From the NCBI RefSeq assembly GCF_000244875.1, contig NC_016791.1, forward strand, positions 1,051,501 through 1,115,500: 64,000 nt of DNA, given 5' to 3'. This stretch comes from Clostridium sp. BNL1100 (GTDB lineage Bacteria > Bacillota > Clostridia > Acetivibrionales > DSM-1351). A program made the position numbers and the translations under genes. This document shows, piece by piece, positions 1-8,774 of this stretch (its first letter is position 1; every line of letters starts with the position of its first letter). The notes under the pieces are model-generated. The model had not been told where the DNA came from. It ran no database searches and worked only from the letters and a program-made list of their open reading frames with translations.

Positions 1-430
1 AGTAGGTACAACAGAAAAAGGTATAAAATTCAAAATTGCCGTTGATAAGGTACCTGCAAGGGCCAAATATGTTGATTGCTACTTCAATTCCAGCTATCCT
101 GACTCCAGAGCGGCAGTAGAAGAGAAGGAAGTGTCAAAGGCGCCAAGCCATGAGGATAATGAGGCTCAGGTAGAAACAGTAGCAGCAACAAAGCCGGGTG
201 ACCTAAAATGGGAAGTACATATAGTAAACGAGGAGAAGCTTTTACACAGAGAATACATGTCCCCATTAATGAAGTGCACAGTTAAGGAGCTTCTGGAGAT
301 ACCCAAATTTGAAAGGGTAAGCAGCAACCCGGCTAAAACTGAGTATGTACCACCAAGAAACCAAGTAGAAGAGGAAATCTGCAAAATATGGCAGATAGTA
401 TTGAATGTAGAGACTGTAGGCATAGACGAT
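1..430 (+). repeat. Intragenic direct repeat, copy 1 (FkbH end, linker and start of PCP)
   Basis: Bases 1-430 recur at 3505-3934 with an exact offset of 3504 bases (1168 codons). The first 330 or so bases look identical, and only a handful of substitutions appear before the copies diverge inside the carrier domain. Copy 1 runs off the window edge, so the repeat unit is longer than shown. Confidence 0.95.
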
Positions 431-3400
431 TCATTTTTTGAATTGGGCGGAAACTCACTAAAGGCTGTATCTGTTATATCTAAAATTCACAACAGGTTCA
501 GCGTTGAAATGTTTTTAAGAGATATATTTAGTGCACCGACTGTAAGAGAAATGGCAGAACTAATCGGGAATCTGGATAAGAGCTTATATACAAATATTCA
601 ACCGGTTGAAGAAAAGGAATACTACTCTCTTTCCTCTGCTCAAAGAAGAATGTACATAATAAATAAAATGGAAGGGGCTACAACAAACTATAATAATCCG
701 GGTGTAAATGTTATTGCGGGTGAACTGGACAAGGTGAGACTGGAAGAAGTGTTTAAAGCATTAATACAAAGACATGAAGCATTCAGAACCTCATTTAAGG
801 TGGTAGATGGCGAACCTGTTCAGATAATTCATAAAGAAGCAGACTTTAAAATAGAACATATTATGGCAGAGGAATCAGACGTGGACAGAGTTATTGAGGA
901 GTTTATACGTCCGTTTGAGTTGGAAAGAGCACCATTGTTGCGGGTAGGTCTGGTTGAATTATCAAGCCAAAAGCATATATTAATATGTGATATGCACCAT
1001 ATTATATCTGACGGAGTCTCAGTAAATATTTTAGTAAATGAGTTCATACAACTGCTTAATGGAAAAAGTTTACCTAAGACTTTGTTACACTACAAGGATT
1101 ACTCCGAATGGCAAAATAAGCTAATAAAATCAGGGAGTATGAGCAAGCAGGAGGAATACTGGCTGAATACCTTCTCAGGACAGATACCTGAACTTGCAAT
1201 GCCTCTTGATTACAAAAGGACAAGGGTTCAGACCTTTAATGGAGACACAATTAACTTTAGTATTTTAAGTGACATAAAAGATAAAATACATGAACTGGTA
1301 AAAGAACAGAATATCACCTTGAATATACTGTTTTTCTCCATGTTTGCCTTACTCATAAACAAATATTCCTCACAAAAGGATATAGTAGTAGGTTCTTCTG
1401 TTGCAGGAAGGCCCTATGAAGAGTTGAACGATATTATCGGAATGTTTGTAAATTCGATTGCCATCAGGATAAATATTGATACTGAAAGTAAAATTCAGGA
1501 GTTTTTAAAGTATTCAAGGGATATAATAGTTGCGGCATATGATAATCAAAGTTATCCCTTTGACAAGCTGGTAGAAAAGCTGTCATCAAAAATAGACCGT
1601 TCTAGAAATCCGTTGTTTGATGCAATGTTGATTTACCATAATGAGTTTGACACAAATACGGAGGATGAACCGGAGGACATAAGGTTTTCCAATTATGAAT
1701 TCAGCAGAAAAACATCAACACTGGATTTTAAAATGGATGTATACCCTCAGAAAGAAGGAGGGTTTAGCTGTGTACTTGAATATAATGTGGACCTGTATAA
1801 AAAGGAAACAATGGATACCTTCATAAAGCATTTCATTATGCTTTTAGAGGATGTCGTAAATAACCCGACTCAGGTCGTATCGGAAATCGATGTGTTTACC
1901 AATGAAGAAAGGCTACTGATAGAGCAGAAGAGGAAGAACAACGGTTCAGAAGGAAGCAACTCCTTGAAGTTAGCTGTAAGCTCCACGTTTACAGCCGAAC
2001 CTATCTTGGACTATATCGCATGGTGGTGTAAAGAGTTCAAGGAGCCTGTGGAGATTGAATTTGCTCCGTACAATCAGGTATTTCAGGAACTTTTAAACGA
2101 ATCCAGTTTGATATCCGGAAATACAGGACTGAACTTACTGCTTGTACGTTTTGAGGACTGGATCAGGGATGATATGTCAGAAGACGGGTCAAAGATTGAA
2201 AAGCTTGAAAGGAACTTTAGGGAACTGGTACAGCTCCTTGAAAACAAGAAAAAATCAATCCCGTACTTTGTTGGTATATTCCCGGTTTCAACCCATCTTT
2301 CCCTTGGTACTGAACTAGTGAATCACCTTGAAGAAATGAACAGAAGATGGAAGGAAAGCTTAAAGAATATCAAAGAGGTTTATACGGTAGACTTTAGCTT
2401 GGCAGAAGAATTATATGATGTCGGAGAGATTTTTGATAAATCCAAAGATAAAGCCGGGCACATACCATTTACCGACGAATACTTCTCTGTAATAGGGACT
2501 ATGGCAGCACGAAAAATATGTGCATGGAAAAAACAAACCTTCAAGGTGATAGTACTTGACTGTGACAATACTCTTTGGAGTGGCATATGCGGTGAGGGAA
2601 CTGAGAGTGAAGTAGATGTGGCTGAACCATATCGTGCACTTCAAAGCTTCATGCTGCAAAAACGCAATGAAGGAATGCTTCTTGCTTTATGCAGTAAGAA
2701 CAATGAAAAGGATGTATGGGAAGTCTTTGATAACAACAAACAAATGATGTTGAAGAAAGAACATTTTGCAGCATATCGGATTAACTGGAACAACAAGTCT
2801 CAGAACATAGCGGAGATGGCAGCTGAGTTAAATCTGGGAATAGACAGCTGTATATTCATTGATGATAATCCGGCAGAGTGTGCCGAAGTAATGACAAACT
2901 GTCCGCAAGTATTGACCCTGCAACTGCCTGAGGATCAAAATCAGATAGAAATGTATCTAAGGCATGTTTGGGCCTTTGACAAATTGAAGGTAACAAAAGA
3001 GGACAGGACAAGAGCCCAAATGTACACTGCTGAAAAGAAAAGGCAGAAGTCACAAAAGGAACTATCCTCACTGGATGATTTCCTTAAAGGACTGGAAATC
3101 AAAATGAGTATGAACATAATGGAGGAACAGGAGACCGACAGGGTTTCTCAATTAACACAAAGAACAAACCAATTCAATCTCAGCACAATACGCAGAACCG
3201 AAAAAGAAATAAATGAAATAACCCTGCTACCCGATAAAAAATGCCATGTAATAAAAGTATCCGACAGATTTGGGGACTACGGACTTGTAGGTGTGGTAAT
3301 AACGGAAGAAAAAGGGAATAGCCTGTTTGTTGAAACACTGCTGTTAAGCTGCAGGGTACTGGGAAAAGAAATAGAGGATTCAATTCTGGTAGGCCTTGCA

Positions 3401-5161
3401 AAGCAATGCAGAGAGCAAGGTATTGACATTATGGAAACGGAATATCTGCTTACGGAAAAGAATAAGCCTGTACTGGAATTCCTTGAGAGAACGGGATGGG
3501 AAAGAGTAGGTACAACAGAAAAAGGTATAAAATTCAAAATTGCCGTTGATAAGGTACCTGCAAGGGCCAAATATGTTGATTGCTACTTCAATTCCAGCTA
3601 TCCTGACTCCAGAGCGGCAGTAGAAGAGAAGGAAGTGTCAAAGGCGCCAAGCCATGAGGATAATGAGGCTCAGGTAGAAACAGTAGCAGCAACAAAGCCG
3701 GGTGACCTAAAATGGGAAGTACATATAGTAAACGAGGAGAAGCTTTTACACAGAGAATACATGTCCCCATTAATGAAGTGCACAGTTAAGGAGCTTCTGG
3801 AGATACCCAAATTTGAAAGGGTAAGCAGCAACCCAGCTAAAACTGAGTATGTACCCCCGAGAAACAAAGTAGAAGAGGAAATCTGCAAAATATGGCAGAT
3901 AGTATTGAATGTAGAAACTGTAGGCATAGACGATACGTTTTTTGATTTGGGCGGAAACTCACTTTTGGCAATAAAGTTGGAAGTTGAGATGGAAAAAGCG
4001 GGCTTAAAGATAGCCAGCTACGATGTATTTAAACTCAAAACGGTAAGGCAGCTTGCATCAGTATTCACCTCCGGTAACGTTGACGAGACAATGATAAAAG
4101 AGGAAGACAACATAAGTATTACCTTGCCGACAGTTTCTGAAGTTGCTTCAGAAGAGATTTCCTCCAATAGAGTTTTGATAGAAGGAATCAAGCCGTTTAA
4201 TGAAATATATTATAAAAACTGTTTCTATAATTCTGCTTTTCCGGTTATAGAGCTATATGGAAGAAGTATAAATACATTCCTGATTAACGATGTTCCGGTA
4301 TTTTCATATGACGAAGATTCAACAGAAATGAAGTTAGACGTGGAATATGTCCAAGTAAAACATATAGAGAAGTTGTTGGAAGAAGAAGGCATAATGGTTG
4401 ATACAAAAAATTCCAGTGAAAATATTGTTAAGGATATAATCAATTCCATAAATAAGAAAAGACCGGTTGTAATTTGGATTGATTGTTTTTACGAATCCAT
4501 TAGGCCGGAGATGTATCAAAAGAGTCATTGGCCGCATACTTTGCTTGTTTATGGATATGACGAAAGTGCAAAAGTATTTAATATAATAGAACATGAACAT
4601 CGTGACAATTTATCCTATAAGCCCTGTACCATTGGTTTTGAGGATATTATAAATTCATACAATGGGTACCTTTCCAATTTTAGAACAAATGATGCTACAT
4701 ATTATGAATTTTATTATAATTCCGCAATGGCTCAAAAGAAAACTGACAAGGATAATAGATATTTATTTTTGTCATATGTAAACGCAAACAAAGATTTAAT
4801 ACAAGAACATCTGGATTACTTAAACAAATTCACCTTGGATCTGGAAAAAATAGTTATGGATAAATCTATTCTGGATGATAGTATTCAATGGCTGTTGAAT
4901 GGAATTAACAATATTGTAAATATAAAACAGGTAGAGAAATATTTAATAACAAACCTATACGGCTCTGAATCAGAATGTTGCACTACTTTTGAAGAGATAT
5001 TCAGTAACTGGATATTTACAAGAGGAGCCCTCGCAAAATATATGTATTCAGGTGTTTATAGGCAGGAAGCCTTTAGGAGCTTAATACAGAGTGTTTCAAA
5101 ATTTTATGAACTGGAATCAAAATACTATACTGTATTGTTTCAAATGGGAAAAGAGCTTTAA
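1..5161 (+). CDS. Multidomain NRPS-like protein, 5' end outside window: (FkbH end)-PCP-C-FkbH-PCP-BtrH/C39-like acyltransferase
   Basis: The frame is open from base 2, so the true start lies upstream; 1719 residues are visible. Counting from base 2: residues 1-45 match the C-terminal end of the FkbH domain found later in the same protein. A peptidyl carrier follows (GGNSLKA, Ser152), then a condensation domain (HHIISDG at 995-1015) spanning about 204-634. An FkbH-type HAD domain spans about 654-1180 (LDCDNTLW, Asp853; FIDDNPAE). A second carrier has GGNSLLA (Ser1320). The C-terminal domain resembles BtrH/papain-like C39 acyltransferases, with candidate Cys1407 (NCFYNS) and His1512 (WPHTLLVYGYDE). 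FkbH proteins load a glyceryl group from 1,3-bisphosphoglycerate onto carrier proteins. BtrH moves an acyl chain from an ACP to an amine. No adenylation domain is visible. Inference: it assembles glycerate-derived acyl units and passes them to an acceptor. Confidence 0.85.
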   Translation, partial: VGTTEKGIKFKIAVDKVPARAKYVDCYFNSSYPDSRAAVEEKEVSKAPSHEDNEAQVETVAATKPGDLKWEVHIVNEEKLLHREYMSPLMKCTVKELLEIPKFERVSSNPAKTEYVPPRNQVEEEICKIWQIVLNVETVGIDDSFFELGGNSLKAVSVISKIHNRFSVEMFLRDIFSAPTVREMAELIGNLDKSLYTNIQPVEEKEYYSLSSAQRRMYIINKMEGATTNYNNPGVNVIAGELDKVRLEEVFKALIQRHEAFRTSFKVVDGEPVQIIHKEADFKIEHIMAEESDVDRVIEEFIRPFELERAPLLRVGLVELSSQKHILICDMHHIISDGVSVNILVNEFIQLLNGKSLPKTLLHYKDYSEWQNKLIKSGSMSKQEEYWLNTFSGQIPELAMPLDYKRTRVQTFNGDTINFSILSDIKDKIHELVKEQNITLNILFFSMFALLINKYSSQKDIVVGSSVAGRPYEELNDIIGMFVNSIAIRINIDTESKIQEFLKYSRDIIVAAYDNQSYPFDKLVEKLSSKIDRSRNPLFDAMLIYHNEFDTNTEDEPEDIRFSNYEFSRKTSTLDFKMDVYPQKEGGFSCVLEYNVDLYKKETMDTFIKHFIMLLEDVVNNPTQVVSEIDVFTNEERLLIEQKRKNNGSEGSNSLKLAVSSTFTAEPILDYIAWWCKEFKEPVEIEFAPYNQVFQELLNESSLISGNTGLNLLLVRFEDWIRDDMSEDGSKIEKLERNFRELVQLLENKKKSIPYFVGIFPVSTHLSLGTELVNHLEEMNRRWKESLKNIKEVYTVDFSLAEELYDVGEIFDKSKDKAGHIPFTDEYFSVIGTMAARKICAWKKQTFKVIVLDCDNTLWSGICGEGTESEVDVAEPYRALQSFMLQKRNEGMLLALCSKNNEKDVWEVFDNNKQMMLKKEHFAAYRINWNNKSQNIAEMAAELNLGIDSCIFIDDNPAECAEVMTNCPQVLTLQLPEDQNQIEMYLRHVWAFDKLKVTKEDRTRAQMYTAEKKRQKSQKELSSLDDFLKGLEIKMSMNIMEEQETDRVSQLTQRTNQFNLSTIRRTEKEINEITLLPDKKCHVIKVSDRFGDYGLVGVVITEEKGNSLFVETLLLSCRVLGKEIEDSILVGLAKQCREQGIDIMETEYLLTEKNKPVLEFLERTGWERVGTTEKGIKFKIAVDKVPARAKYVDCYFNSSYPDSRAAVEEKEVSKAPSHEDNEAQVETVAATKPGDLKWEVHIVNEEKLLHREYMSPLMKCTVKELLEIPKFERVSSNPAKTEYVPPRNKVEEEICKIWQIVLNVETVGIDDTFFDLGGNSLLAIKLEVEMEKAGLKIASYDVFKLKTVRQLASVFTSGNVDETMIKEEDNISITLPTVSEVASEEISSNRVLIEGIKPFNEIYYKNCFYNSAFPVIELYGRSINTFLINDVPVFSYDEDSTEMKLDVEYVQVKHIEKLLEEEGIMVDTKNSSENIVKDIINSINKKRPVVIWIDCFYESIRPEMYQKSHWPHTLLVYGYDESAKVFNIIEHEHRDNLSYKPCTIGFEDIINSYNGYLSNFRTNDATYYEFYYNSAMAQKKTDKDNRYLFLSYVNANKDLIQEHLDYLNKFTLDLEKIVMDKSILDDSIQWLLNGINNIVNIKQVEKYLITNLYGSESECCTTFEEIFSNWIFTRGALAKYMYSGVYRQEAFRSLIQSVSKFYELESKYYTVLFQMGKEL
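3505..3934 (+). repeat. Intragenic direct repeat, copy 2
   Basis: Second copy of the segment at 1-430, in the same frame of the same gene. It joins the end of the complete FkbH domain to the second carrier domain. The near-identity points to recent module duplication or ongoing gene conversion. Confidence 0.95.
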
Positions 5162-5188: not shown

Positions 5189-6268
5189 ATGATGAAAGAC
5201 AGTATAAAAATAGGTATTGCAGGTTGTGGATGGATTGCACAAAATGCACATATTCCTGCTTTTCAAACAATTAAAGGAGTGGATATCATATCGGTTTTTG
5301 ATAACGATATCCACAAAACAAACAGTGTCACAAAAAAATTTAACATTAATAAAGCATATGATAATTATGAGGATTTTCTGGAATCAGAAATCGATGCAGT
5401 AGTAATTTCAACTCCTAATTATACACATGGGGATTTTTCTATAAAAGCACTTCAAAAAGGCAAGCATGTCTTGTGTGAAAAGCCCATCACAATTCATAGC
5501 AAAGATGCGGCAGATATTATACGGGTTGCTCGGGAAAACAAAAGAGTTTTCATGCCTGGTTTTGTGAATAGGTTCCGCGAAGATATAAAAAAGATGGCCG
5601 ACATTATCTCAAAAGGAGAAATAGGAGAAATAAAAAAAATAAAAGCAGGCTGGATTAGAAAATCAGGGGTTCCAAGGCCCGGAACCTGGTTCACAAACAA
5701 AGAACTCTCAGGTGGAGGTGTTTTAATAGACTTAGGCCCACATATACTTGATTTGTGTCTGATGCTGTTAAAAGAAAATCGTGTAAAAGATATTAGGTTC
5801 AAAGCCTCTCGTAATTACAATTCGGATAAAGATAAAGGTGCGTCGTGGTTTGACACGGGAGAGTTTCAGAATTCTGTCATTGATGTGGAAGATGCAATAA
5901 CCTCCAATATAATATTTGAAGACGATACGGTTATAGATTTGAATTTATGCTGGATGTCACCTGTAAAAGGTGACCATACATATTTTGATGTTCAAGGGTC
6001 AAAAGGTACTCTTGAACTTAAAACACTTTTTGGTTTTAGCAATGATAGGCTATGGGACAAGGATTCAATAGCCGTTAGCAGGTTGGATGGTTTTAGAAAT
6101 GAAGTAGTATTTGATAAAAGTACAAATAATGCACTCACAGCTTTTGATGGGCTTACACGTTACTTTATAAGTACAATTAGGGGTGAATTGTCATCCTATT
6201 TAACCCCGGAAGACGGATATAATACTGTAAACTTGATAGAAAGGTTGTATATGACCGAAAATATTTAA
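5189..6268 (+). CDS. Gfo/Idh/MocA-family NAD(P)-dependent oxidoreductase (RifL-like?)
   Basis: 359 residues with an N-terminal Rossmann fold (GIAGCGWIAQNAHIPAF), the family EKP motif in VLCEKPITIH near residue 98, and a C-terminal alpha/beta domain containing GGGVLIDLGPHILD. The start follows a GGGGG-type ribosome site 27 bases after the upstream stop, so it probably belongs to the same operon. The family oxidises or reduces sugars, cyclitols and related polyols with NAD(P). Together with the dehydroquinase-like and HAD genes downstream, it matches the set RifL/RifJ/RifM of 3-amino-5-hydroxybenzoate pathways. That pathway assignment is an inference. An inositol or aminocyclitol dehydrogenase role is the main alternative. 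Confidence 0.85.
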   Translation: MMKDSIKIGIAGCGWIAQNAHIPAFQTIKGVDIISVFDNDIHKTNSVTKKFNINKAYDNYEDFLESEIDAVVISTPNYTHGDFSIKALQKGKHVLCEKPITIHSKDAADIIRVARENKRVFMPGFVNRFREDIKKMADIISKGEIGEIKKIKAGWIRKSGVPRPGTWFTNKELSGGGVLIDLGPHILDLCLMLLKENRVKDIRFKASRNYNSDKDKGASWFDTGEFQNSVIDVEDAITSNIIFEDDTVIDLNLCWMSPVKGDHTYFDVQGSKGTLELKTLFGFSNDRLWDKDSIAVSRLDGFRNEVVFDKSTNNALTAFDGLTRYFISTIRGELSSYLTPEDGYNTVNLIERLYMTENI

Positions 6269-6352
6269 TATAAGAAATTTCTGGAATATGAATATTATGG
6301 TAAAATTTTTTGTAGAAGAATCTGTCAGTCAAATATATACCATAGGAGAAAA

Positions 6353-6799
6353 ATGATGAAAAGAATTATTGGTGTGATAAACGGACCTAACATAAATATG
6401 CTGGGGATAAGAGAACCCGGGTACTATGGAAAAGAAACCTGGGGGGATATTGAAGCACGCTTGGTAAAGCTTTCAGTAGATTTGAATTTTGAGCTTATTT
6501 TCTTTCAGTCAAATCATGAAGGGGATATCGTAGATTTCATTCAGCAAAATATTGAAAAAGTTGAGGGCTTTATTATTAATCCTGCAGCATATACAAAAGG
6601 CGGATATGCTATTCTTGATGCGTTAACTGCAATTGATAAGCCCTTTGTTGAAGTGCATTTATCAAATATTTACTCCAGAGGAGGATGGCATTCGGAATCA
6701 ATTTTTGCTGAAAAGGCTGTCGGTCAAATATCAGGTTTTCAAGGCTACGGTTATGAACTTGGGCTAAGGGCGCTGACCAATCATTTAAAAGTTGTTTAA
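6353..6799 (+). CDS. Type II 3-dehydroquinate dehydratase-like protein (AroQ/RifJ family) with altered active-site segment
   Basis: 148 residues, the usual length for the family. The N-terminal signature GPNINMLGIREPGYYG is present, as are the QSNHEGDIVDFIQ and NPAAYTKGGYAI segments. After the conserved EVHLSNIYSR the usual RExFRH sequence is replaced by RGGWHSES: the first Arg is kept, but the following Glu and second Arg are lost. Normal type II enzymes dehydrate 3-dehydroquinate. In rifamycin-type clusters RifJ acts on the amino analogue. Placement inside a natural-product operon favours a secondary-metabolic substrate over housekeeping shikimate synthesis. The substitutions could mean changed specificity or reduced activity. 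Confidence 0.85.
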   Translation: MMKRIIGVINGPNINMLGIREPGYYGKETWGDIEARLVKLSVDLNFELIFFQSNHEGDIVDFIQQNIEKVEGFIINPAAYTKGGYAILDALTAIDKPFVEVHLSNIYSRGGWHSESIFAEKAVGQISGFQGYGYELGLRALTNHLKVV

Positions 6800-6826
6800 T
6801 CAGATTAGAGCTTATAGGGGGTTTTC

Positions 6827-7960
6827 ATGAATTTAGACAGATTGGGATGGGACAGCTTTTTTGAGAAGTCTTTTGCCGAATATGGCAATAAGGAATTGAT
6901 TCCCGCAAGAATTTTGTCCCAACAGAAAAACAATTATACGGTATGCTTGGAGAATAAGTCTTTTAATGCGAAGCTGTCAGGAAAATTTATTTATACGGCA
7001 AGTAAAAAGAAACACTTTCCTGCGGTTGGAGATTGGACCTTAATAAAACTAACCGAAAATAATAGTCAAGCAATAATTCATCACGTTTTACCAAGAAAAA
7101 CTGCCTTTGTTCGAAAGTTACCCATATCGGGAGGCAGAAAAGTTAAAAACGGGTGTATCGTAGGGGGAACTACGGAGGAACAGATTATTGCAGCAAATGT
7201 AGATACAGTATTTATTGTATGTGGTCTGGATGGAAATTTTAATCTTCAAAGAATCGAAAGGTATATAACACTTGCCTACAACAGCGGTGCTACTCCTGTT
7301 ATCATCTTAAATAAAGTTGATTGCTGTGAATCCATTGAAGATCATGTGGTTAAAGTGAGAAAAATTGCAGCAGGCTTGGACATTTACCCCATTAGTGTAT
7401 TAAAAAATATCGGTATGGACATTTTTGATAAATACCTGCTCCAAGGTAAAACAATAGTTTTTCTAGGTTCTTCGGGAGTTGGAAAATCATCGATAATCAA
7501 TTATTTAATTGGGGAGGAAAAACAAAGAACTAATTTAATAAGTGATTTCAATGGAAAAGGAAAACATACAACAACAAGCGCTCAACTGGTATTTCATAAT
7601 TCAGGATGTATGATAATTGATACTCCGGGTTTAAGGGAATTGCAACTGTGGGGAGAAGAGGATGCTCTGAATCAAAATTTTGATGATATCATCAGTATAG
7701 CAAAGAAATGTAAATATAGGGACTGCCAGCATGATAAAGAGCCCGGATGTGCGGTCAAGCTGTCCATTGAGGAAGGGCTGATAAGCCTTGAAAGGCTTGA
7801 AAACTATAGAAAGCAACATTATGAACTGGTAATGCTGGATGGGAGAATAAAGCAAAATGAAGCGTATTTAAGCAAAGGTGCAAAGCTTCATGCAAAAGTG
7901 CAACAGGATAAGCGAAAAGGTAATTTTCAACGTAATAAGAATATTTTTAAATCATTTTAA
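6827..7960 (+). CDS. RsgA-like circularly permuted GTPase
   Basis: 377 residues. The permuted GTPase motif order is visible: NKVD (G4) near residue 163, then GSSGVGKSS (P-loop, G1) near 214, then DTPGLREL (G3) near 265. A C-terminal zinc-binding segment CKYRDCQHDKEPGC follows near 295-310, and the N-terminus looks OB-fold-like. RsgA proteins act in late maturation of the 30S ribosomal subunit. The gene starts 27 bases after the dehydroquinase-like gene, in the middle of a biosynthetic operon, so it is more likely an accessory paralogue than the only housekeeping copy. Whether it protects the ribosome or has been recruited for something else cannot be told from sequence. Confidence 0.85.
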   Translation: MNLDRLGWDSFFEKSFAEYGNKELIPARILSQQKNNYTVCLENKSFNAKLSGKFIYTASKKKHFPAVGDWTLIKLTENNSQAIIHHVLPRKTAFVRKLPISGGRKVKNGCIVGGTTEEQIIAANVDTVFIVCGLDGNFNLQRIERYITLAYNSGATPVIILNKVDCCESIEDHVVKVRKIAAGLDIYPISVLKNIGMDIFDKYLLQGKTIVFLGSSGVGKSSIINYLIGEEKQRTNLISDFNGKGKHTTTSAQLVFHNSGCMIIDTPGLRELQLWGEEDALNQNFDDIISIAKKCKYRDCQHDKEPGCAVKLSIEEGLISLERLENYRKQHYELVMLDGRIKQNEAYLSKGAKLHAKVQQDKRKGNFQRNKNIFKSF

Positions 7961-8060
7961 GAAGGCAAATTTAAAATACAGATTTGATTTATAAATTTGT
8001 TCACAACAGAGAAACATTGATGTAAATACGATAACATTAAATTAAAAGTAGGTGAGTAGT

Positions 8061-8774
8061 TTGAGAAAAGCAGTAATTTTTGATTTTGACGGAGTTGTTA
8101 TAAATTCTACTGAAGTACAGAGGCAGGCTTTTTTCGAAAGCTATAAGATTGCAGTTGGTGATGGTGGTATACCATCTTTTGAGGAGTTTCTAAGGCATAG
8201 CGGAGATTCACTACCGAATATATTTAAAAAAATGAATCTGCCATTAGAGATGGTGGAGCCATACAGAGAAATAAGCCGTAGAAAGATAACAGAAATAAAA
8301 GTGTATGACGGTATGAGGGAGCTATTGGCTGATTTAAAGGAAAATAAATATATGTGTGGTCTATGTACGGGAAAAGACAGGGCCAGAACAATAGAAATAC
8401 TTGATAATGCGGATTTATTCAACTATTTTGATACTTTGGTTTGCTCGGATGATGTCTGTAACCCAAAGCCTCACCCGGAGAGTTTAGTGTTCTGTCTGGA
8501 AAAGTTAGGTGTTTCAAGAGAAGATTCCGTAATGGTTGGGGATGCCAGAAACGATATTCTGTGTGCAAAATCCGCAGGAGTAAAAAATATTGCTGTTACT
8601 TGGGGTGATACGGATATAGAGGATCTTAAAAAAGAACGTCCTGATTATATAGTAAGAAGTATTGTGGAATTAAAAGGTTGCCTCTTTAATTTATATAACC
8701 CAAGTAATAAAAATGGCATGTTTAAGACCATGAATATTAACAATGTTATGGTAAATACACTAAATGGCAGGTAA
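8061..8774 (+). CDS. HAD-superfamily phosphatase (RifM-like?)
   Basis: About 237 residues. HAD motif I is FDFDGVVINS, motif II/III residues fall around CTGKDR and NPKPHPES, and motif IV is MVGDARNDI. I chose TTG at 8061 because AGGTGA (8050-8055) lies five bases upstream. An in-frame GTG at 8052 would overlap that ribosome site and add three residues. The cap-domain sequence (VGDGGIPSFEEFLRHSG, NLPLEMVEP) resembles the phosphatases of AHBA clusters such as RifM as I recall them; this was not checked by alignment. Other possibilities are a phosphoglycolate or beta-phosphoglucomutase-like phosphatase. Confidence 0.82.
   Translation: MRKAVIFDFDGVVINSTEVQRQAFFESYKIAVGDGGIPSFEEFLRHSGDSLPNIFKKMNLPLEMVEPYREISRRKITEIKVYDGMRELLADLKENKYMCGLCTGKDRARTIEILDNADLFNYFDTLVCSDDVCNPKPHPESLVFCLEKLGVSREDSVMVGDARNDILCAKSAGVKNIAVTWGDTDIEDLKKERPDYIVRSIVELKGCLFNLYNPSNKNGMFKTMNINNVMVNTLNGR

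Follow-up and report, generated by a model that had tools for sequence, protein, structure and literature searches.

The window analysed here is a stretch of 64,000 nucleotides (G000:C1:1051501-1115500) from a Ruminiclostridium genome consisting of one contig. Its first ORF is a single open frame that enters from the window edge and belongs to a hybrid PKS/NRPS protein of 4,256 aa (full ORF G000:C1:1043891-1056661; L011:3892-16662), the window starting at residue 2538. About 60 kb of genes upstream encode further NRPS/PKS modules. The following features were defined in the window:

2-5161, + strand: ORF, C-terminal 1,719 aa of the 4,256-aa hybrid PKS/NRPS protein
1-459, + strand: repeat of window 3505-3963 (linker plus start of the PCP) with 98% identity at the DNA level, marking the visible border of a module duplication
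332-556, + strand: PCP carrier in FkbH module 1, with an LGGNSL motif (Ser2689)
605-1915, + strand: condensation (C) domain 2, HHIISDG at 995-1015; predicted donor glyceryl-PCP1, predicted acceptor glyceryl-PCP2
1976-3505, + strand: FkbH domain 2, with an N-terminal extension (1976-2539), a HAD phosphatase part (2540-2980, DCDNTLW) and a GNAT-like part (2981-3505, LSCRVLG), the inner borders being cuts set in this analysis
3836-4060, + strand: PCP carrier in FkbH module 2, with an LGGNSL motif (Ser3857)
4106-5158, + strand: BtrH/C39-like C-terminal domain, Cys3944 (4220-4222) and His4049 (4535-4537)
5189-6268, + strand: Gfo/Idh oxidoreductase, RifL-like candidate, 27 bp 3' of the megasynthase gene
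6353-6799, + strand: type II dehydroquinase, the second in the genome, RifJ-like candidate
6827-7960, + strand: RsgA-like GTPase, with a counterpart in the same position in the sister species
8052-8774, + strand: HAD phosphatase, RifM-like candidate; top NCBIfam hit "AHBA synthesis associated protein" (TIGR01454), 184.7 bits, below the cut-off of 246.65

Local phmmer searches gave the layout KS-DH-KR-PCP-C-FkbH-PCP-C-FkbH-PCP-BtrH-like for the 4,256-aa protein. The Pfam scan identified KS, DH and KR domains, three PP-binding and two Condensation stretches and a C39_2/BtrH_N-like end; none of the 24 families it listed is a thioesterase. The NCBIfam scan identified FkbH (TIGR01686) in two stretches (612 bits in total). 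A preliminary description based on the window had predicted the order FkbH-PCP-C-FkbH-PCP-BtrH for the complete protein. The profile scans and the phmmer layout bore this out: both FkbH-PCP units, the C domain between them and the BtrH-like end were recovered, and the first FkbH domain was found directly 5' of the window. Of the catalytic motifs checked, none was disrupted in the two FkbH copies, the two C domains or the three carriers, and the KS, DH and KR motifs were also present. Judged from these profile matches, the domain scores are far above chance for every part except the BtrH label, which is modest.

Tandem duplication of the C-FkbH-PCP module

The two C-FkbH-PCP modules form a tandem duplication, with DNA 99.4% identical over 2.5 kb. 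In the core of the copies, 12 of 843 codons differ (9 synonymous and 3 nonsynonymous changes), and the upstream module copy gave a 92% match to window positions 603-3000. The preliminary description had recognised a repeat of 45 residues at the window start, taken to be the end of an FkbH domain. The repeat is real and longer than this (1-459 against 3505-3963), but its visible part begins just past the end of the FkbH match (G000:1051498) and not within that match. Tandem Repeats Finder did not detect the module repeat, because its longest period is 500. An assembly artefact was ruled out as the source of the repeat, since the copies differ at scattered sites, their flanks differ and the assembly of a sister species breaks at the same edges.

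This sister species (G007) has the same gene, 92% identical to the window gene outside the repeat, and its contigs break off at the borders of the repeat. The initial 5,309 nt of the gene lie on contig C17, which stops inside C domain 1, and contig C44 starts with the codon from which the two PCP copies diverge; among the G007 contigs, none was found that holds the repeat itself. The doubled state is probably also present in G007, to judge from these sequences, and would therefore be older than the split between the two species, unless it arose twice.

A contig scan with a single FkbH sequence identified no relative, and relatives were obtained instead by an alignment-based contig scan. An independent C-FkbH-PCP-C-FkbH-PCP tandem was found in one (L074) of 80 related FkbH loci. 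Its FkbH copies are 61% identical and its two C domains are mutual sisters (local support 99). A second candidate tandem, in L135, was dropped: the C domains of its two adjacent modules were not sisters in the tree, so that locus has no module duplication.

Predicted glyceryl loading and ester formation

FkbH 1 and FkbH 2 scored 316.7 and 317.1 bits, respectively, against TIGR01686 (curated cut-off 146.65). The motifs DCDNTLW, CSKN, DDNPAE and LSCRVLG were found in both copies, and the DCDNTLW and SCR-LG columns were invariant across 11 aligned FkbH sequences. The conserved cysteine of the GNAT-like part has a catalytic role. Both domains are predicted, by analogy with the named family, to load glyceryl.

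The active-site motifs of the C domains (HHxxxD type) are HHIVFDG in C domain 1 and HHIISDG in C domain 2. The pattern HH....G is missing in 11 of 47 C domains with an FkbH acceptor and in 14 of 71 with an A acceptor. The C-domain tree (FastTree, with local support) included 118 of the 146 distinct C domains (149 found); the other 28, with an acceptor that was not visible or a bare PCP, were left out, as were VioA and all experimentally known ester-forming C domains. C domain 1 of the window gene, cut in L010, received its label from L011. The C domains preceding FkbH (47 of the 118 rows) accounted for 11 changes on the tree, against a mean of 36.7 for shuffled labels, and none of 500 shuffles gave a value as low. 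Both C domains of the window gene branched in a clade (local support 99) in which all 20 rows had FkbH acceptors and the donors were mixed (KS, KR, AT, A, FkbH or unclear); 27 of the 47 FkbH-acceptor C domains lay outside it. A clade with FkbH acceptors and mixed donors is consistent with ester formation as reported for vioprolide, but it may simply reflect the joint inheritance of C-FkbH-PCP as a block.

According to the cited portions of the vioprolide papers, a C-FkbH-T module is present and its C domain forms an ester (PMC8949500, PMC10099666), and the VioA C domain is listed as characterised in vitro (PMC12304814). Together with the C-domain tree, this precedent (PMC8949500, PMC12304814) makes an ester between two glyceryl carriers, as proposed in the preliminary description, the best reading of C domain 2; for both C domains, ester formation is predicted from the named families. 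The ester-forming C domains of VioA, BurF, CrpD and FkbP, as they appear in that part of PMC12304814, combine HHxxxD with a hydroxyl acceptor, as predicted here. However, in our case one C domain would have glyceryl on both the donor and the acceptor carrier.

Vioprolide VioA and corramycin ComK (FAAL-ACP-C-FkbH-T; PMC8949500, PMC10099666) likewise have a glycerate-adding C-FkbH-T module, described in the cited portions as a single one near the start of the line, whereas here two consecutive modules lie at the end and are followed by a BtrH-like domain. The NRPSs of suomilide and dysinosin are described, in the cited portion of PMC8609519, as having an FkbH domain proposed to load glycerate at the chain start, whereas FkbH here would act in elongation. 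The glycerate modules were single in the published systems found, as far as the cited portions go (including PMC8949500, PMC10099666 and PMC8609519), and none of the titles and abstract openings returned by literature searches on FkbH named a doubled glycerate module. Each of the parts is known, and the doubled arrangement seems to be new. From it, a natural product with a glycerate-glycerate ester is expected, and the near-identical copies offer a clean test of product lengthening by module duplication.

It could nevertheless be argued that only one glyceryl unit is added, the duplicate being a young redundant copy that is either skipped or used as an additional site for loading the same unit. 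Megasynthases are known to skip modules, and 99.4% identity over 2.5 kb is expected of a young or converted duplication. However, the reading frame and motifs are preserved in both copies, the doubled state is probably shared with G007 and thus older than the split unless it arose twice, and the FkbH copies of the separate L074 tandem have diverged to 61% identity. We therefore consider the addition of a single unit unlikely. The FkbH domains might also load another three-carbon acid, such as lactyl, so that the chain would end in two lactate-like units, given that the FkbH domain of BryA (bryostatin) loads lactate. This appears very unlikely, since FkbH domains in NRPS lines are assigned glycerate in the cited portions of PMC8949500, PMC10099666 and PMC8609519.

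Predicted chain release and product

The match of the C-terminal domain to BtrH_N (PF14399) was weak, with 29.2 bits in the whole protein and 33.5 bits for the domain alone (Pfam cut-off 29.7), spanning profile positions 54-132 of 134. Of 13 aligned BtrH-like sequences, 12 matched PF14399 at E <= 0.01, and the papain-like Cys-His pair (C41 and H146, corresponding to Cys3944 and His4049) was invariant in all 13. A PDB sequence search with the domain yielded no solved relative (best E 0.4), and a structure model from a two-sequence alignment (window and R. hungatei) had a mean pLDDT of 31.5. Eight NRPS or PKS proteins in four other families within this clostridial order likewise end in PCP-BtrH, and the domain, if confirmed, would add to the known kinds of release domain. 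FkbH and BtrH do not usually occur together: among the 80 FkbH loci, a BtrH-like ORF was seen in L072 only, and it shares 24% identity with the domain of the window gene. BtrH of butirosin is a separate protein that moves an acyl group onto an amine of the aminoglycoside, and its family acts on carrier-bound acyl groups, whereas here a weakly similar domain follows the last PCP within one polypeptide. The cited portion of PMC2922099 lists BtrH as a transacylase-type family with a papain-like fold. Cysteine-based release is predicted by analogy with this family.

We favour, with moderate confidence, the view that the product of this gene forms the final part of a large hybrid NRPS/PKS, in which two D-glyceryl units are added in turn before release by the BtrH-like domain. 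The chain would reach the first carrier of the 4,256-aa protein after one KS-DH-KR extension, as a predicted 2-enoyl thioester. Each FkbH domain would take 1,3-bisphosphoglycerate, remove a phosphate and place D-glyceryl on its own carrier. C domain 1 would then esterify the chain to a hydroxyl (2 or 3) of glyceryl-1, and C domain 2 would transfer chain-glyceryl-1 to a hydroxyl (2 or 3) of glyceryl-2. Finally, the papain-type cysteine domain would move chain-glyceryl-glyceryl from the last carrier to an acceptor. The preliminary description envisaged a glycerate dimer passed to an amine. A free dimer is unlikely, since FkbH 1 is preceded by its own C domain, KS-DH-KR-PCP and the upstream modules, so that the hydroxyl of the first glycerate most likely carries a long acyl chain. 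The modules would cap a hybrid NRPS/PKS chain, and the product is therefore probably acyl-glyceryl-glyceryl-X. An amine is one possible acceptor, and a hydroxyl, water and the chain itself are others.

The last step could instead be an intramolecular ring closure, with the BtrH-like domain forming a macrolactone or macrolactam (using, for example, an aryl amine, like RifF in ansamycins), or hydrolysis, with the domain as a thioesterase substitute, rather than transfer to an external amine. Its location is the usual thioesterase position in a protein with no thioesterase listed, the presence of PCP-BtrH ends on NRPS as well as PKS proteins suits a generic release role, and AHBA-like genes lie directly downstream. 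However, BtrH itself acylates an aminoglycoside amine, and the A domain that is the candidate for an aryl acid occupies an internal position (C-A-PCP), which would leave its amine acylated rather than free. We regard this alternative as possible but somewhat doubtful; it is compatible with the addition of two glycerates. More speculatively, repeated C-FkbH-PCP modules might constitute an undescribed general chemistry that writes oligoglycerate ester tails, with BtrH-like domains as a novel class of release domain, cysteine-based and linked to carriers, that hands chains to amines, R. hungatei having the minimal form (FkbH-PCP and a BtrH-like protein) and the tail here being carried on an N-acyl aminohydroxycinnamoyl unit from AHBA; we attach a low probability to this proposal.

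From their sequences, the downstream genes look like part of the aminohydroxybenzoate (AHBA; 3-amino-5-hydroxybenzoate) pathway. The RifL-, RifJ-, RifM-, RifK- and RifG-like genes are family-level matches only, with the RifK and RifG candidates 2.7 Mb away, and the comparison with a solved AHBA enzyme covered the DegT proteins only. An ansamycin with a free AHBA starter is unsupported, given the internal position of the candidate A domain; the codes of the A domains were assigned by visual inspection of the printed motifs. A plain housekeeping role was ruled out for the dehydroquinase, as a stronger copy is present at G000:2581531. A dehydroquinase of about 200 bits was found in all 11 genomes of the genus, and a second copy in four of them.

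Domain layout and module duplication in the window gene

The window opens within a gene for a hybrid PKS/NRPS protein:

Window 2-5161: first ORF of the window, entering from the window's edge (full ORF, G000:C1:1043891-1056661)

The complete ORF encodes 4,256 aa, in a source genome of 4.61 Mb assembled as one contig. Pfam, NCBIfam and local phmmer gave the same layout, KS-DH-KR-PCP-C-FkbH-PCP-C-FkbH-PCP-BtrH-like, and motifs were found for the KS, DH and KR, the three carriers, the two C domains and both FkbH domains. The upstream FkbH domain predicted in the preliminary description is therefore real, and further domains precede it. In both FkbH domains, which are putative glyceryl-loading domains, an N-terminal extension precedes the HAD phosphatase and GNAT-like parts; a passage of a malleicyprol paper names an extension of this kind NEX and suggests that it may aid glycerate transfer to carriers (PMC12304814). 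The individual parts of the gene are already known, and the arrangement appears, as far as searched, to be new within the open-licence PMC literature on FkbH (including PMC8949500, PMC10099666, PMC12397197, PMC8609519 and PMC12304814).

The two C-FkbH-PCP modules, offset by 3,504 nt, are 99.4% identical across gene nt 5443-7972, with differences in 12 of 843 codons, nine of them synonymous. In 100-nt steps, identity between the copies drops to 55-89% 5' of the duplicated stretch and to chance level just past the PCP serine. In the sister species of the same genus (G007), contig C17 carries the first 5,309 nt of the gene (92% identity) and then ends, and contig C44 starts with the codon that follows the LGGNSL motif, the point at which the two copies diverge; no contig carrying the repeat itself was found in G007. 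These contig ends match the traces of a collapsed repeat, suggesting that the doubled module is most likely common to both species and would have been homogenised in the species of strain BNL1100.

Tandem FkbH modules elsewhere and the C domains ahead of FkbH

A profile search of genome contigs yielded 392 FkbH loci, of which the best 80 were kept. Within these, a C domain lies immediately ahead of FkbH in one ORF at 40 loci, and a tandem inside one protein was found at a single locus (L074, from the clostridial MAG SZUA-474), with the order PCP-C-FkbH-PCP-C-FkbH-PCP-C in a protein truncated where the contig stops. Between the two L074 copies, identity is 61% in FkbH and 48% in C; their C domains are sisters (local support 99), and their FkbH domains are mutually nearest rows, but the smallest starred set containing both has three rows. 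The L074 tandem therefore predates that of the window gene and is a separate one. An Aquimarina locus (L135) has two adjacent ORFs with a single module apiece; its second FkbH has DCDQTLW, and the C domains of the two ORFs do not pair as sisters in the C-domain tree.

FastTree was applied to the 118 C domains whose acceptor could be seen (47 ahead of FkbH and 71 ahead of A). The FkbH-acceptor label changed 11 times on the tree versus a shuffled mean of 36.7, with 0 of 500 shuffles as low, a result to which near-copies contribute. A group of 20 rows, all FkbH-preceding (local support 99), includes both window-gene and both L074 C domains, and its donors are PKS, NRPS or FkbH carriers. Judged from sequence, such a group with mixed donors fits C domains that may be adapted to a glyceryl acceptor. 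The grouping would look similar if C-FkbH-PCP had been inherited as a block, and the 27 of 47 FkbH-preceding C domains that fall outside the group limit the acceptor-adaptation reading. Excerpts on the vioprolide module describe a C domain that esterifies glycerate (PMC8949500, PMC10099666, PMC12397197), and a passage elsewhere counts VioA among the C domains that form esters and have been characterised in vitro (PMC12304814). As described in these excerpts, this C-FkbH-T-type module is a published precedent for an ester-forming C domain ahead of FkbH. Auerbach 2018 is reportedly the primary paper for it.

The BtrH-like terminal domain

All 13 aligned sequences of the last domain share an invariant Cys and His, and 12 of the 13 matched BtrH_N, as 12 did C39_2, at E <= 0.01. 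A C-terminal PCP-BtrH was also found in NRPS-type proteins (L051, L059, L060, L061 and L062) and PKS proteins (L063, L064 and L065), spread over four further families of the order; these account for 8 of 20 loci besides the G007 ortholog, a proportion that is no frequency, since the 20 loci were picked for matching. In Ruminiclostridium hungatei, the nearest FkbH (62% identical) has a free BtrH-like protein encoded directly after it, which shares only 24% identity with the window-gene domain; read by eye, the FkbH protein seems to have a carrier-like end, GINSIS, where the local scan saw no PCP. Among the best 80 of 392 FkbH loci, a BtrH-like ORF was seen only at the R. hungatei locus, which counts against a general FkbH-BtrH partnership. 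One source places BtrH with transacylase-like enzymes and assigns it a papain-like fold (PMC2922099); for the domain considered here, transfer, cyclisation and hydrolysis are all candidate roles.

The R. hungatei pair, a 743-aa FkbH protein and the free BtrH-like protein, shares the stretch L072:8854-15653 with neighbouring genes for glycosyltransferase-like, 551-aa C39-like and SDR-like proteins, these recognised by eye only. This gene group is possibly a minimal glyceryl-transfer system.

Upstream proteins and candidate AHBA-type genes

The region upstream of the window gene (~984-1043 kb) encodes NRPS and PKS proteins, together with:

L160:13900-17013 (G000:C1:988899-992012): single protein that joins a beta-lactamase-family domain to an ABC exporter of the cyclic-peptide type, near the cluster start

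A free FkbH, 3-hydroxyacyl-CoA dehydrogenase, acyl-CoA dehydrogenase, free A domain, AT and GNAT are also encoded there; they resemble an amino- or hydroxymalonyl-ACP set, which we liken to the zwittermicin genes. In the protein directly before the window gene, the A domain has SHAVGI at the place aligned with SFDGSA in an A domain from linear gramicidin synthetase, and thus is without the Asp that binds the alpha-amine, a feature of aryl-acid A domains. A second FkbH assembly line of strain BNL1100, L012 (G000:C1:3165000-3183000), has the order KR-DH-PCP, KS-PCP, C-FkbH-PCP-C-A-PCP-C, AT, A-PCP, with relatives of like order in three compared genomes (G002, G005 and G006).

Downstream of the window gene (window 5189-8774) lie genes for a Gfo/Idh protein, a second type II dehydroquinase, an RsgA-like GTPase and a HAD phosphatase. 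The Gfo/Idh protein, dehydroquinase and HAD are candidate RifL-, RifJ- and RifM-like members of an AHBA (aminohydroxybenzoate) pathway. G007 has all four genes at 88-98% identity, and a ROK kinase besides; in G006 the Gfo/Idh, dehydroquinase and HAD genes adjoin (43, 68 and 48% identical), with a free FkbH ~3 kb away, and G005 has no close Gfo/Idh relative and a dehydroquinase of only 36% identity. Further candidates are located elsewhere in the genome:

G000:C1:3779000-3782500 (3.78 Mb): dehydroquinate synthase and two DegT aminotransferases, distant from the cluster

Among solved structures, both DegT proteins match AHBA synthase 1b9h best, at E 1e-83 and 4e-81. G006 and G007 have the 3.78 Mb genes at 89-97% identity, and a DegT search of four genomes found no high-scoring copies in G005. 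The downstream and distant genes together support an AHBA-type pathway, perhaps feeding the atypical A domain, in which case the glycerates would follow an aminohydroxycinnamoyl unit at the chain end; we propose this tentatively, as somewhat less than an even chance. The HAD score, under the TIGR01454 cut-off, and the scattering of the genes between the cluster and a distant locus count against it. To our knowledge no AHBA route has been described in clostridia, and none was named in a literature search at the level of listings.

A gene group in G006 (L186:15850-19375 and L185:5152-11713; G006:C1:3857-3874 kb) brings the Gfo/dehydroquinase/HAD triplet together with a free FkbH, a B12-radical-SAM protein, a BtrH homolog (42.6 bits) and a DegT aminotransferase, with no ORF >463 aa within the 40 kb covered. 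Another set was observed in strain BNL1100:

L183:6419-18680 (G000:C1:3658-3671 kb, ~3.66 Mb): further Gfo/ROK/HAD set

It adjoins an AMP-ligase, a U32 protein, DUF362 and two B12-radical-SAM proteins, and is a possible additional AHBA-type cluster.
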